Source: Maritalea porphyrae (GTDB lineage: Bacteria > Pseudomonadota > Alphaproteobacteria > Rhizobiales > Devosiaceae). From it: 64,000 nt of DNA. Position numbers and translations under genes: made by a program. The stretch is from positions 186,001-250,000 of the forward strand of contig NZ_JAPWGX010000001.1 of NCBI RefSeq assembly GCF_027213965.1. Direction: 5' to 3'. Shown piece after piece: positions 55,677-63,621 of this stretch (its first letter is position 1; each line of letters begins with the position of its first letter). Below the pieces are notes generated by a model that worked only from the letters and a program-made list of their open reading frames with translations, searched no databases and was not told the origin of the DNA.

Positions 55677-55866
55677 ATCAAGCGTTCAAAAAAATACCTA
55701 TTGTGGCCCTTTCTGATCAGTTCCATCACAAAAACCTGCCAAAGCACTGACAGAAAACGATAAAAATAATCAAAAAAATTTTGTAGGTCACGATTATTAA
55801 AGGTTTTAACTACACTAATAGAGCCTAGACATATATTTTGTGCACAATGTTAGGCAGGTATTGGTT

Positions 55867-58167
55867 ATGTTTGGCCGTCTATTAAAAACAATTCGTTCAG
55901 AACAACAACTCTCCACTGTCATTCGTGCACACCTTGTCGATGGGCTTTTTCATCCGTTCGCGTCGCTTATTTCTGGCGCGCTAGCTGGCATATTTATTGC
56001 CACCATTTTGACCCTATTTGTCGAAGACCAGCTTGTTGTAAATCTCGGATATTTCGTCGTTTTCTCGGCTGTTGCAAGAATTATCATTGGCATTATTTAC
56101 TTGCGTTCAGGTTCATCGGTTACAGTCGAAAATGTAAGGCAATGGGAATGGGCCTACACGATAGGCGCTGGCGCATTTAGTGCCGGCTTGGGCGTGGTCA
56201 CATTTTTTGCCCTCACCCGAATAGACAATGCGCCGGTTCATTTGATGCTTTGCACAACTGCCGCTGCTTATGGCGCAAGCATTGCGGGGCGTAATGCGGG
56301 ACGGCCATGGCTGGCCCTCAGCCAATTGTATCTTGCCACAATTCCGATGGGCGTTGGCCTGATGATGCAAGACACCATCTTTTATCACGTTGTCGGTTTT
56401 GCACTGATTCTATTCATGTTTGGTATGACCGACATCACAATTGCTGTGCGCAAAACAATCATCGATGCATTGGAACATAAACAGCGCAACGCTGAGCTCG
56501 CTTCATCATTCAAACAGCAAGCAGAGCGTTTTGATGCAGCACTTACGAATATGTCGCACGGGCTTTGCATGTTCGATCAAAATCAAACCCTTGTGGTTTG
56601 GAATGAGAAGGTTGCCGACATTATTGGTGCGGAACAATCATTGTTTGAATATGGCACTACGATGGAAAAGGTCATTTCCGCGTTTCATCCGGACGATCAC
56701 TCCAAAATCACCACCCAAAAGAGCAGCAATGGACGCGGCGAATGGGCAGAAACGGCCAAACTGAGCGATGGCCGCTTTGTTTCGGCGTCCACACGCACCA
56801 TGGAAAATGGCAACACCGTTATTGTTTTTGCCGATGTGACAGAAAAAGAAAAAGCTGAAGCGCGGATCAGAAACCTTGCTTGGGTGGATCAACTCACGGG
56901 GTTGATGAATCGAGTTTCTGTACATGAAGCCTTTATTCAAAAACTTGAGCAGATGGATGAATCCTCTGAATTAGCCGTTCACTACATAGATTTGGACCAC
57001 TTTAAGAGCGTCAACGATACTTTGGGACATCCAATTGGCGACATGCTTTTGAAACAGGTTGCAGATCGTATTTGCGATGTGTGCTTGGACGAAGGTGACG
57101 TTGCACGAATGGCCGGTGACGAGTTTTTGGTTTTGCAAAAACTTTCGCCTCAAGCCCGCTCGCCGCGTGACTTGGCACAACAAATTGTTGCGGCATTGCA
57201 CCAACCTTTCAACGTCAATTCTCACTTCATTCAAATTGGCGCTTCCGTAGGTATCGTGATTGCGCCAAAAGATGGTAATGACGCGGACTTGCTGCTCAAG
57301 CGGGCAGATATGGCCCTCTATGCCGCGAAAAAAGCGGGTCGTAACAAGTTTGCCTATTTTGAACCGCAAATGGATCAGCGCTTGCAACAAATGCGTGCGC
57401 TTGAGCTGGACATCAAACAGGCTTTGGAAAAGAGCCAATTCAAGTTGGCATTTCAGCCAATTGTCAACGCTGAAAACAACAGCGTTGCAAGCTTTGAATG
57501 TTTGGTGCGCTGGACACATCCAACAAATGGCAAAATGATGCCCGCCAAATTTATACCGGCCGCTGAAGAAACAGGGCAGATTATGGAAATTGGTCGTTGG
57601 GTGACCAAAGAAGCCATCAAGACTGCAGCTGCCTGGCCTGTGCGCACACAGATATCGGTGAATTTTTCAGCTGTTCAGTTTCAGGATTCTCGGTTTGCTG
57701 ATTTCCTGAAACGCCAGCTAAAGCGGTACAACTTCCCCGCAGAACTGCTTGAGTTGGAAATTACCGAAACCGCCTTTATCGTTGATATTGAGAACAGTCT
57801 GAAGCAGCTTCAACAGCTGAAGGATCTTGGCGTAAAGATATCGCTTGATGATTTTGGAACTGGCTATTCATCACTCAGCCAATTGCAGCGCTTTTCATTC
57901 AACAAAATCAAAATTGATGGCAGCTTTGTGCGCGATTTGGAGACGAACCCAAGTTCTGCGGCGGTTGCAACCGCAGTTGCTGAAATTGGTAAGGCGCTTG
58001 ATATTACGGTTGTCGCAGAATGCGTTGAAACCCAAGCTCAATTGGACTTCCTCAAATCGGTTGGCGTTACCCATATCCAAGGGTATTTCACCGGTCGACC
58101 AATGGATGCTGAGGCCGCTGAGGCGCTTCTGGTTAAAGCTGCCCCAGCAGTGAGTGAAGCTGGCTAA
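55867..58167 (+). CDS. Membrane PAS-GGDEF-EAL protein
   Basis: 766 residues from the ATG at 55867, with AGG about 8 nt upstream; a GTG at 55840 is the alternative. About six helices span residues 30-187. A short coiled stretch leads to a PAS domain (about 219-326, FDAALTNMSHGLCMFDQNQ). The GGDEF domain (about 335-500) has AGDEF at residues 416-420 and no RxxD I-site. The EAL domain (about 515-760) has ECLVRW instead of EALVRW, but its catalytic set is kept: NFSAVQ, ELEITE, SLDDFGTGYSS, KIKIDGSFV, AECVET and QGYFTGRP. It probably binds c-di-GMP and degrades it; synthesis is uncertain. It is convergent with rpfF, 3 bp apart. Confidence 0.9.
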   Translation: MFGRLLKTIRSEQQLSTVIRAHLVDGLFHPFASLISGALAGIFIATILTLFVEDQLVVNLGYFVVFSAVARIIIGIIYLRSGSSVTVENVRQWEWAYTIGAGAFSAGLGVVTFFALTRIDNAPVHLMLCTTAAAYGASIAGRNAGRPWLALSQLYLATIPMGVGLMMQDTIFYHVVGFALILFMFGMTDITIAVRKTIIDALEHKQRNAELASSFKQQAERFDAALTNMSHGLCMFDQNQTLVVWNEKVADIIGAEQSLFEYGTTMEKVISAFHPDDHSKITTQKSSNGRGEWAETAKLSDGRFVSASTRTMENGNTVIVFADVTEKEKAEARIRNLAWVDQLTGLMNRVSVHEAFIQKLEQMDESSELAVHYIDLDHFKSVNDTLGHPIGDMLLKQVADRICDVCLDEGDVARMAGDEFLVLQKLSPQARSPRDLAQQIVAALHQPFNVNSHFIQIGASVGIVIAPKDGNDADLLLKRADMALYAAKKAGRNKFAYFEPQMDQRLQQMRALELDIKQALEKSQFKLAFQPIVNAENNSVASFECLVRWTHPTNGKMMPAKFIPAAEETGQIMEIGRWVTKEAIKTAAAWPVRTQISVNFSAVQFQDSRFADFLKRQLKRYNFPAELLELEITETAFIVDIENSLKQLQQLKDLGVKISLDDFGTGYSSLSQLQRFSFNKIKIDGSFVRDLETNPSSAAVATAVAEIGKALDITVVAECVETQAQLDFLKSVGVTHIQGYFTGRPMDAEAAEALLVKAAPAVSEAG

Positions 58168-58170
58168 TCC

Positions 58171-59109
58171 TTAGTCGGTCAAAGGTTTATTTGACTGCGC
58201 TGAAACGAGCCTGCGCATGATTTTGAGTTCACGAGGTGTAATTTTTAGCGCCGCGTCCGTCCAATAACTCACAATATCGTCCAATTCCTCGAAGGGAATT
58301 GGGTTTGCACGCTTAATGGCTGCATGGTAGGCGCAGGCGGGTTGGTGCCTTGGCGTGGTTTTGGAAATATATTTCTTGACGGCTTTCACCCCCTCACCGG
58401 GTTCGGCAAGGATTTGAACCACCCCCATTTCAAACAATTCCTCTGCACTTAGTGACCGCCCAGTGCGAATGAGCTGCTCCGCTTTGGCAAAACCCAGCTT
58501 GCGCCCCAAAAAAGTCAAAGCTCCCATGCCAGGGAACAGACCAAACAGATGCTCTGGAAAACCGAATTTTGCACCTTTTTCCGCACAAATAATGTCGAAT
58601 GACAACAATGATTCAAAGCCGCCCCCCAATGCATCCCCTTGCACCAATGCAATGGTGACTAGGTCGAGTGAGGTGGCGAGCCAGTTGCGATGAAGAATTT
58701 GAACGCATGATAGGCCATACTCATAAAGCCCTTCTCGGTCTTGCTCTTCAATGCAGCGTGAAAAATAATCGAGGTCTCCGCCAAGACAAAAGAACTCTTC
58801 ATGCCTTGAACCCAGCACGACAAATTTCATTTGGTCGTGCATCTGCGACTTAAGTGCTTCGATGTTGATGTGCCAATTGTGAAAGTCATCTAGTAGGCGG
58901 GGATTATAAGATGCCCTGCCCTCGAACTGCATAAATGACCAAACAGTGGCATTGGAAATATCGAAATTGCTTTCGATCTGTCCCAAGTTTCCCCAAAACC
59001 TTTCTTGGTCTTTGGGGCGGTTGAACGGCAGGTCAGATTGAGTGAGAAGCTTGAACGTTGGTTCTTCCCGGCCAATCGACCGATTTTTGACGGCGAGATT
59101 TTTGGTCAT
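58171..59109 (-). CDS. rpfF: RpfF-type enoyl-CoA hydratase (diffusible signal factor synthase)
   Basis: 312 residues, crotonase fold. RpfF is a dual thioesterase/dehydratase that makes cis-2-unsaturated fatty-acid signals (DSF family) from acyl-ACP. The core is typical of RpfF: CLGGDLDYF, ALVQGDALGGGFE with Glu166 and FGFPEHLFGLFPGMGA with Glu186. The 20-residue spacing equals that of the catalytic pair Glu141/Glu161 of Xanthomonas RpfF. An N-terminal extension of about 50 residues and a C-terminal LKIMRRLVSAQ also fit. An ordinary enoyl-CoA hydratase is less likely. No RpfC/RpfG is in the window; the neighbour is the PAS-GGDEF-EAL gene. Confidence 0.82.
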   Translation of the reverse strand: MTKNLAVKNRSIGREEPTFKLLTQSDLPFNRPKDQERFWGNLGQIESNFDISNATVWSFMQFEGRASYNPRLLDDFHNWHINIEALKSQMHDQMKFVVLGSRHEEFFCLGGDLDYFSRCIEEQDREGLYEYGLSCVQILHRNWLATSLDLVTIALVQGDALGGGFESLLSFDIICAEKGAKFGFPEHLFGLFPGMGALTFLGRKLGFAKAEQLIRTGRSLSAEELFEMGVVQILAEPGEGVKAVKKYISKTTPRHQPACAYHAAIKRANPIPFEELDDIVSYWTDAALKITPRELKIMRRLVSAQSNKPLTD

Positions 59110-61858: not shown

Positions 61859-62407
61859 ATGAATGTAAGAACCGTCTGCCTAGCGATCCTCACCCAAGGG
61901 GAAACGACAGGCTATGAAATCCGCAAACGCTCCACTGAGGGCGACTTTTCCTTCTTTTTAGAAGCCAGCTTTGGCTCGATTTATCCAGCACTTTCTAAAT
62001 TGGAAGAAGATGGATTTGTCACCAGCCACGTCCAGGCGCAAGAGGGAAAGCCAGCCAAAAGGGTTTATTCGATCACACAAGTGGGTCGAGAGAGCTTCAT
62101 AAATTCGCTTTTTGAAGATCTGAATGCCGATGTATTTCGTTCAGAATTCATGCTGTTTTTGCGTTTTGCCGAAGAATTACCGCGCGACCTGGTTGAAAAA
62201 CGAATTTTAGAACGTATCTCAAAGGTCGACGAGGAAATTGCGTCGATTGAAGAGATGGGGGCCGATCTGGAGGCTAAAGCAGATCGCTGGGTTTTGAAAT
62301 ACGGACTGTCCTGTATTCGGCAAGCTCGAAACTATCTGATTGAACATAAAGATGAAATTATCGCCATGGCGCAGCCGATAGATGCTGCTGCTAAGGCAGC
62401 CGAATAG
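61859..62407 (+). CDS. PadR family transcriptional regulator
   Basis: 182 residues. The winged helix is at residues about 5-80 (LAILTQGETTGYEIRKRSTEG, SFGSIYPALSKLEEDGFVTSH). A C-terminal helical dimerisation domain follows, as in PadR subfamily 1. PadR proteins usually repress a neighbouring transporter until a toxic ligand binds. It is 11 bp upstream of the RND adaptor gene. Confidence 0.92.
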   Translation: MNVRTVCLAILTQGETTGYEIRKRSTEGDFSFFLEASFGSIYPALSKLEEDGFVTSHVQAQEGKPAKRVYSITQVGRESFINSLFEDLNADVFRSEFMLFLRFAEELPRDLVEKRILERISKVDEEIASIEEMGADLEAKADRWVLKYGLSCIRQARNYLIEHKDEIIAMAQPIDAAAKAAE

Positions 62408-62418
62408 GGAATTATTAA

Positions 62419-63621
62419 ATGCGCTTTTTATTGTCATATGGCGTGGCGTTTCTTTTGATCGTTGGCATTGGGGTTTGGATGGCGTCTGGGACGCTCGTTC
62501 AAGGTGGTCAAGGCGCAGGAAATGGCGAACGCGCTATCCTTGACGTGCTGGAGCTGCCTGAAGATAGCGGAATTAGAGGTGTCTTGGAGCAGGTTGGGCT
62601 GGTTACACCAACTGAGCCCACGCAGGAAAACATTGATGTTGCTACGGAAGAGCCTGAAGCGGAAGCAGAAGCACTTCAATCAGTTCGTACGCAGGCATTT
62701 GTCGCACAAGATTTGCCACTAACTGTTTCATTGCGCGGCAACACAAAAGCCAGTGCGACTGTGTCCATTAGAGCCGAAACTACGGGTATCTTGAAAACAC
62801 GGCATGTGAACAAAGGTGATCACGTTAAGGCTGGCGATCTGTTGTGCGAAATTGATGAGGGAACCCGCAAAGCGCAATTGGCACAAGCCAAAGCCTCATT
62901 GGCGAAAGCTGAACTCGATTATTCCTCCAACAAGACACTTCGAGAAAAAGGCCTTTCACCAGCAAATTCTGGTCGACAATTTGAAGCGGCGCTTGAAGCT
63001 GCCCGTGCAGCTGTTGATGGTGCACAGGCGGAACTTGAACGCACTGTGATCTATTCTGAGGTTGCAGGTATTGTACAGGACCCAATCGCCCAGCCCGGCG
63101 ATATGCTGAGCGCAGGCGCGGCTTGTGTGACCCTTGTACAAATGAACCCAATTCTATTTTCTGGCGATATTCCTGAGGCACGGATCAACGCGGCCGCCAT
63201 TGGATTGCCAGTGACTGTAAAAACCATCACCGGACAAGAAGTGGTGGGCACATTGAGCTATGTGTCCCCTACATCCAACACCGCCACTCGGGCCTTCCCA
63301 GTGGAAGTGAAAATTCCGAACGATGATTATGCAATTCGTGCTGGGCTGACCGCAGAAGCGACTGCAGTTCTGGGCACAGTTAAGGCACATCTTGTGCCTC
63401 AATCAGTACTTACTTTGGACAGTGAGGGTACAATCGGCGTTCGCGCTGTGTTGGACGGCACTGTTGTGTTTCACGCTATACAAATCGTACGTGACACAAC
63501 AAAGGGTATTTGGGTGACCGGCCTTCCCGGAAATGTGGAAATTATCACTTTTGGGCAGGAATATGTAATCGCTGGACAAAAGGTCGTTGCTGACAATATC
63601 AGCGACGAGAAAACATCATGA
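62419..63621 (+). CDS. RND efflux periplasmic adaptor subunit
   Basis: 400 residues. An N-terminal membrane anchor (residues 2-22) is followed by a variable linker. Then come the membrane-fusion core: lipoyl half VSIRAETTGILKTRHVNKGDHVKAGDLLCEID, a coiled coil, and YSEVAGIVQDPIAQPGDMLSAG. It bridges the RND pump and an outer-membrane channel. The stop overlaps the pump's start (ATGA). Confidence 0.92.
   Translation: MRFLLSYGVAFLLIVGIGVWMASGTLVQGGQGAGNGERAILDVLELPEDSGIRGVLEQVGLVTPTEPTQENIDVATEEPEAEAEALQSVRTQAFVAQDLPLTVSLRGNTKASATVSIRAETTGILKTRHVNKGDHVKAGDLLCEIDEGTRKAQLAQAKASLAKAELDYSSNKTLREKGLSPANSGRQFEAALEAARAAVDGAQAELERTVIYSEVAGIVQDPIAQPGDMLSAGAACVTLVQMNPILFSGDIPEARINAAAIGLPVTVKTITGQEVVGTLSYVSPTSNTATRAFPVEVKIPNDDYAIRAGLTAEATAVLGTVKAHLVPQSVLTLDSEGTIGVRAVLDGTVVFHAIQIVRDTTKGIWVTGLPGNVEIITFGQEYVIAGQKVVADNISDEKTS

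Follow-up and report, generated by a model that had tools for sequence, protein, structure and literature searches.

A convergent gene pair in Maritalea porphyrae encoding an RpfF-type crotonase and a six-helix membrane GGDEF-EAL protein, a putative DSF-type signal circuit

In Maritalea porphyrae, a marine alphaproteobacterium of the family Devosiaceae in the order Hyphomicrobiales, a window of 64,000 nucleotides (the whole stretch analysed; contig NZ_JAPWGX010000001.1, positions 186,001 to 250,000) contains a gene for an RpfF-type crotonase, the probable synthase of a fatty-acid signal of the diffusible signal factor (DSF) type, which converges on a gene for a membrane protein with PAS, GGDEF and EAL domains. 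This partner protein begins with six transmembrane helices (6TM) and is a probable sensor and enzyme of cyclic di-GMP (c-di-GMP) turnover. The features of the locus, in window coordinates, are as follows.

58171..59109, minus strand: RpfF-type crotonase, probable DSF-type synthase, 312 residues (open reading frame, profile scores, alignment, tree and model)
58612..58614, minus strand: codon of the catalytic Glu166 of the crotonase
58552..58554, minus strand: codon of the catalytic Glu186 of the crotonase
58519..58536, minus strand: FPGMGA, crotonase residues 192-197
58168..58170: 3 bp separating the stop codons of the convergent genes
55867..58167, plus strand: 6TM-PAS-GGDEF-EAL protein, probable sensor and c-di-GMP enzyme (open reading frame, Pfam, model and comparison with relatives)
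55840..58167, plus strand: partner reading frame from the alternative GTG start, 775 residues; residue numbers of the partner count from this GTG
55867..56523, plus strand: residues 10-228, a membrane region of six membrane-length helices absent from Pfam
56290..56304, plus strand: residues 151-155, RNAGR, the motif of the loop that joins TM4 to TM5
56542..56859, plus strand: PAS_7 domain, residues 235-340 (Pfam)
56878..57348, plus strand: GGDEF domain, residues 347-503, motif reading AGDEF (Pfam and alignment)
57409..58101, plus strand: EAL domain, residues 524-754, motif reading ECL, catalytic residues kept (Pfam and alignment)

The 3-bp spacing given in the initial annotation of this DNA is confirmed, and the ATG at 55867 from which it had started the partner is probably the natural start, being likelier than the GTG at 55840 by its match to the start residue in most relatives.

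The crotonase scores 321.7 bits on the PRK08788 model (NF006452), whose curated cut-off is 177. In a phmmer alignment Glu166 and Glu186, whose 20-residue spacing had been recognized initially and holds, face E157 and E177 of PDB 3m6m, a tagged RpfF of solved structure; we take these two residues to be E141 and E161 of the Xanthomonas campestris pv. campestris enzyme. Both glutamates are kept across the aligned RpfF-type rows, save for Asp at 166 in one divergent row, and FPGMGA is near-universal in RpfF-type rows, while the genome's four ordinary crotonases have a different sequence there. The phylogeny, in which the initial annotation had sought a separation from ordinary enoyl-CoA hydratases, places the crotonase within the RpfF family. 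A quick tree with long branches flagged was built from 106 rows (101 of the 148 crotonase loci, the window protein and four outgroup rows). In it, 102 RpfF-type crotonases stand apart from the outgroup, which consists of those four ordinary enzymes (support 100), and the window protein falls in a 56-row alphaproteobacterial clade (support 99), next to a group that includes the RpfR-linked enzymes and those RpfC-linked ones that come from outside the class (support for the join 90). The 12 best PDB fold matches of the crotonase model (ranks 1-12) are all RpfF chains, ahead of other crotonases. The enzyme is thus classed as RpfF-type and as a probable synthase of a fatty-acid signal. RpfF makes free cis-2 fatty acids, and the binding of one of them by RpfR lowers c-di-GMP (PMC6361424).

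In the partner protein, Pfam recognizes PAS_7, GGDEF and EAL domains and gives no match in residues 1-228, with no family at E<=1 in the 6TM region. The AlphaFold model (mean predicted local distance difference test score, pLDDT, 87.3; membrane helices mostly 87-96) has helices at residues 40-60, 64-90, 99-127, 131-151, 156-175 and in the first part of 180-236, the last of which extends past the membrane part towards the PAS domain. The earlier proposal that a membrane region of about six helices stands in place of the soluble RpfF-interaction (FI) domain of RpfR is borne out: residues 36-205 form membrane helices, and the partner has no soluble N-terminal domain of the RpfR FI type. On the output side, all 37 partners compared share the same nine EAL residues, presumably those of the catalytic site, and the GGDEF motif is intact in the 37, with the first Gly changed to Ala in three of them, the window protein included. 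Since both sites are preserved in this way, cyclase and phosphodiesterase activities may both exist; lowering of c-di-GMP by the partner would be expected by analogy with RpfR.

The site at which a signal would be sensed can be approached through the variation in domain make-up. RpfR binds the Burkholderia signal BDSF via its PAS domain (PMC6361424), and PAS_7 sits between the 6TM domain and GGDEF in the rhizobial partners examined, which favours a receptor working as in RpfR, with the PAS domain binding the fatty acid and the 6TM domain serving as a mere anchor. The partners that adjoin the same crotonase in Sphingomonas, Sphingobium and their kin, however, are 6TM-GGDEF-EAL proteins without PAS, whereas RpfR has one: the spacing from the membrane part to GGDEF is 11 residues in 25 of 25 sphingomonad rows and 130-138 residues in 12 of 12 rhizobial rows, and Pfam supports the PAS-less make-up for the sphingomonad examples L170 and L190. 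Moreover, the partner PAS aligns only weakly by profile with that of RpfR (probability 45%, 17% identity), and of the five RpfR contacts Ser alone is matched in a comparison by hand, which is of low confidence. The PAS domain, which the initial annotation had cast as the receptor by analogy with RpfR, is accordingly demoted as a conserved receptor, and this arrangement is considered unlikely. Because the sphingomonad partners drop the PAS domain yet keep the 6TM domain, the latter is, on present comparisons, the constant part of the partner proteins, and for the same reason the 6TM domain appears the better candidate for the sensing site.

The gene pair, on whose conservation the initial annotation had staked its reading, is found in 6 of 6 genomes of the genus; elsewhere in Hyphomicrobiales and in Sphingomonadales it reappears with its genes convergent, divergent or in tandem. 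At E<=1e-20 the crotonase is present in 9 of 61 genomes (all six Maritalea genomes, 1 of 31 from other genera of the family and two from the rest of the order); a partner search of 41 genomes gave eight full-length matches, all in crotonase genomes, the remaining matches beginning at residue 172 or later. Within the order, the crotonase was found in 44 of 347 genomes at E<=1e-35 and the full-length partner (E<=1e-150) in 10, every one of which has the crotonase. When sorted by hand, the 44 crotonases comprise nine that are convergent with the partner (among them G252, with a partial partner at a contig end, and G211, in which both genes point off contig ends), five in tandem with the partner upstream and two with it downstream, 21 with RpfC and a GGDEF-EAL response regulator, two with RpfC and another REC protein, and five with neither adjacent (G174, G201, G279, G246 and G150, the last two with a GGDEF-EAL gene ~6-7 kb off). 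A 6TM-type gene adjoins the crotonase at 72 of 148 loci (two of them fetched twice), 57 convergent, 7 divergent and 8 tandem. Among the named-collection loci, which are the best 80 of 497 confirmed, it does so in 53 (46 convergent, 7 divergent); the other 27 include two RpfC clusters and one contig end with a kinase fragment, and no c-di-GMP gene adjoins the crotonase at eight inspected loci among the remaining ones. A control survey, in which 62 of 398 phylum genomes exceeded the PRK08788 cut-off, recovered the known RpfR-type and RpfC-type arrangements as expected at the 20 loci fetched. The Maritalea genome holds 20 GGDEF matches; with an assumed, not counted, ~3,500 genes, a GGDEF gene would neighbour a given gene by chance in roughly 1% of cases, whereas the pair recurs across many genomes.

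These distributions also bear on whether the crotonase might be a fatty-acid metabolic enzyme without a signal role, set in an incidental neighbourhood. Some sphingomonad crotonases of the same clade do adjoin ordinary genes (the eight loci inspected), and the signal activity of the enzyme is putative; a purely metabolic role is nevertheless very improbable in view of its patchy distribution (1 of 31 genomes from the family's other genera and 44 of 347 order genomes), the linkage kept through four relative gene arrangements and the pairing of crotonase relatives with RpfC. Other rhizobial relatives of the crotonase adjoin RpfC, and for this reason they support a DSF role of the enzyme.

Several observations concern the arrangements at individual loci. 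The rhizobial rpfF-rpfC clusters (L082:3684-8537 and similar loci, 21 of 44) carry a REC-PAS-GGDEF-EAL protein in place of the xanthomonad HD-GYP RpfG, its domains being assigned by Pfam for L082 and by BLAST for the others. At L109:9419-11086 and L111:6092-7738, a REC protein with what by eye is a histidine-kinase end, not a c-di-GMP domain, lies beside an RpfC-like kinase and the crotonase. Sphingomonas sp. H160509 carries two crotonase-partner loci, L176 and L185, the partner of L176 being split over two open reading frames. The stand-alone Sphingomonadales crotonases L199, L203, L204, L228, L229 and L236 lie near recurring ordinary genes that by eye resemble those for pirin, a ZapE-like ATPase, a thioesterase and sdhB.

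The 6TM domain itself has no family in Pfam. Among 25 members compared with Pfam, the best E value was 0.0034 (TM_HPP, three members), with no MHYT or MASE model, and a scan of viral_contigs with the 6TM region gave no relative. The rows of a VIA-align comparison fell mainly on residues 352-770, on the output side of the protein. A transplanted RpfC input domain was rejected as its origin, hhalign giving a probability of 7.6 over a 31-column linker with an RpfC profile built from 14 of 22 RpfC rows (eight were dropped as the H-box pattern missed them). A single 6TM clade for rhizobial and sphingomonad partners, supported at 97 in a 64-row tree, was not recovered in a 125-row tree and was set aside.

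Within this family the loop between TM4 and TM5 may distinguish the partners. The nearer members have R80, R151 and Q162 in common, while A153 and R155 occur in every partner compared, whether convergent or divergent (61 of 61) or in tandem (8 of 8); the 16 unlinked members compared all have Phe or Tyr at 153, and three have Arg at 155. More distant members, mostly of ~400 residues, have other residues at the loop positions. All nine genomes searched among those with a stand-alone crotonase carry exactly one 6TM protein with RNAGR elsewhere, which is PAS-less by size (open frames of 657-678 residues), as Pfam confirms for the one tested. Motif readings cover 90 of the 108 matches from the 347-genome 6TM scan and all 17 from the nine-genome search (among the other 18 matches of the scan, the motifs of G216 and G266 come from L113/L115); after five of 107 rows were dropped as repeats or near-copies and the window protein and 22 linked rows were added, a set of 125 rows resulted. 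In this set RNAxR occurs in 43 rows with an RpfF genome and 4 without, and another motif in 14 with and 64 without. Thirteen of these 14 are additional copies spread over ten genomes: eight of the ten have an RNAxR copy as well, and the other two (G161, G296) are RpfC-type. The remaining one is an adjacent partner with RDAGR.

The same comparison touches on the possibility that the membrane protein is not the receptor of the product, its main role being either to control the crotonase, in the way that the FI domain or the RpfC receiver acts on RpfF, or to sense a different membrane cue. The FI domain of RpfR binds and inhibits RpfF (PMC6361424), and 6TM relatives occur in genomes without RpfF, both of which are compatible with such a role; yet no RpfF-binding domain is recognized in the partner, and unlinked 6TM relatives mostly differ from the partners at the RNAxR loop, so that we regard this as decidedly unlikely.

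Compared with described systems, the pair resembles RpfF/RpfR of Burkholderia and Cronobacter in that an RpfF-type crotonase is convergent with a GGDEF-EAL protein (PMC6361424; loci L147-L150 and L164). RpfR, however, is in published accounts a soluble protein that has an FI domain and binds the fatty acid through its PAS (PMC6361424, PMC4504480), while the Maritalea partner has the 6TM domain before a PAS of another Pfam type, and no RpfR chain is among the 60 PDB sequence matches listed for it. As in RpfF/RpfC/RpfG of xanthomonads, to whose RpfF the Maritalea crotonase is related, a membrane sensor acts on c-di-GMP turnover. RpfC is, in contrast, a hybrid histidine kinase acting via a separate regulator, whereas the partner, in which Pfam finds no histidine kinase domain, unites sensor and output in one protein; profile comparison gives no homology between the two membrane domains, and a single-sequence query found no RpfC input domain in this Maritalea genome. 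MHYT- and MASE-type proteins likewise place a 6TM or multi-TM membrane input on GGDEF/EAL outputs (MHYT in PMC9756655), but neither model is among the Pfam matches of the 25 6TM members.

Taken together, these comparisons lead us to favour, with moderate confidence, a two-gene DSF-type signal circuit with a membrane 6TM receptor, working in the manner of RpfF/RpfR; linkage, family membership, domain make-up and the intact EAL site can be read from the sequences. The crotonase would make a free cis-2-unsaturated fatty acid from acyl-ACP, which would enter the membrane, where the 6TM domain would sense it. The carboxylate of the acid might lie near the conserved R80, R151, N152, R155 and Q162, with the RNAxR loop on the cytoplasmic side in the predicted topology. 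The change would travel along the long helix after TM6, through PAS where present, and tip the output in favour of the EAL phosphodiesterase, so that c-di-GMP would fall. The choice of ligand-contacting residues is a guess based on conservation and the predicted topology. More tentatively, and with a little under even weight, the 6TM domain may represent a third class of DSF receptor, which binds cis-2-unsaturated fatty acids and directly drives GGDEF-EAL, paired with RpfF-type synthases across Hyphomicrobiales and Sphingomonadales. That the RNAxR loop would lie near the carboxylate, with a small residue where the nearest non-partners have Phe or Tyr, is just as tentative.

Several results weigh against these proposals. 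The crotonase fails the stricter NCBI equivalog model for RpfF (NF053515), with 183 bits against a cut-off of 550. A xanthomonad-type RpfF passes this cut-off with 580, and the RpfR-linked RpfF of locus L150, where the contact residues of RpfR agree with the published ones in identity and numbering, is absent from the matches at E<=1e-60; the model is therefore taken, on these scores, to mark one RpfF subtype. The activity, ligand and phenotype roles of the pair are all putative, and the fatty-acid site in the 6TM domain is proposed from conservation. The 6TM domain is present in 88 of the 347 order genomes, 17 of which also have the crotonase (odds ratio 2.1, p 0.04), although the 13 best-scoring matches are all in crotonase genomes; exclusivity to RpfF genomes was rejected, as 71 of the 88 are not among the crotonase genomes (E<=1e-35), one of these, G327, having a divergent RpfF-like gene. 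Nor is RNAxR a perfect marker, given four exceptions (G104, G116, G139 and G258) in which no crotonase was found in 13-14 kb around the motif gene or in the genome at E<=1e-35. On the 125-row tree the motif changes only ~5 times and RpfF ~7 times, leaving just five independent pairs for a test of co-evolution beyond shared descent, which may explain the co-occurrence.

PAS-less 6TM-GGDEF-EAL proteins with RNASR were seen at L353:6213-8198, L354:5781-7793, L355:5032-7044 and L356:7173-9155, in genomes without detected RpfF (Pfam for L353). In the window, the pair is flanked by genes for a Ppx/GppA-family phosphatase and a GST-family protein (Pfam), which have no evident link to it, and at 61859-63621 a gene for a PadR-like regulator lies, by eye, beside one for a membrane-fusion protein of an efflux system.

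Two core routes of DSF sensing, RpfC/RpfG and RpfR, are described (PMC4504480), and a 2026 review depicts the same two (PMC13220807); both reviews also mention some accessory sensors. The terms crotonase, RpfF and DSF have no hit in the main text of a paper that compares c-di-GMP genes across Alphaproteobacteria, and no report of a crotonase/6TM-GGDEF-EAL pairing was found among the open-licence papers searched. The pair may be a variant of DSF/c-di-GMP signalling and possibly a third way to read this class of signals, for which candidate sensing residues of the 6TM domain can be named by conservation. If this is true, Sphingomonas, Sphingobium and many Hyphomicrobiales would join the bacteria with DSF-type signalling, by a membrane route that needs one protein, and an unnamed sensor domain present in a quarter of the order genomes sampled (88 of 347) would gain a role.

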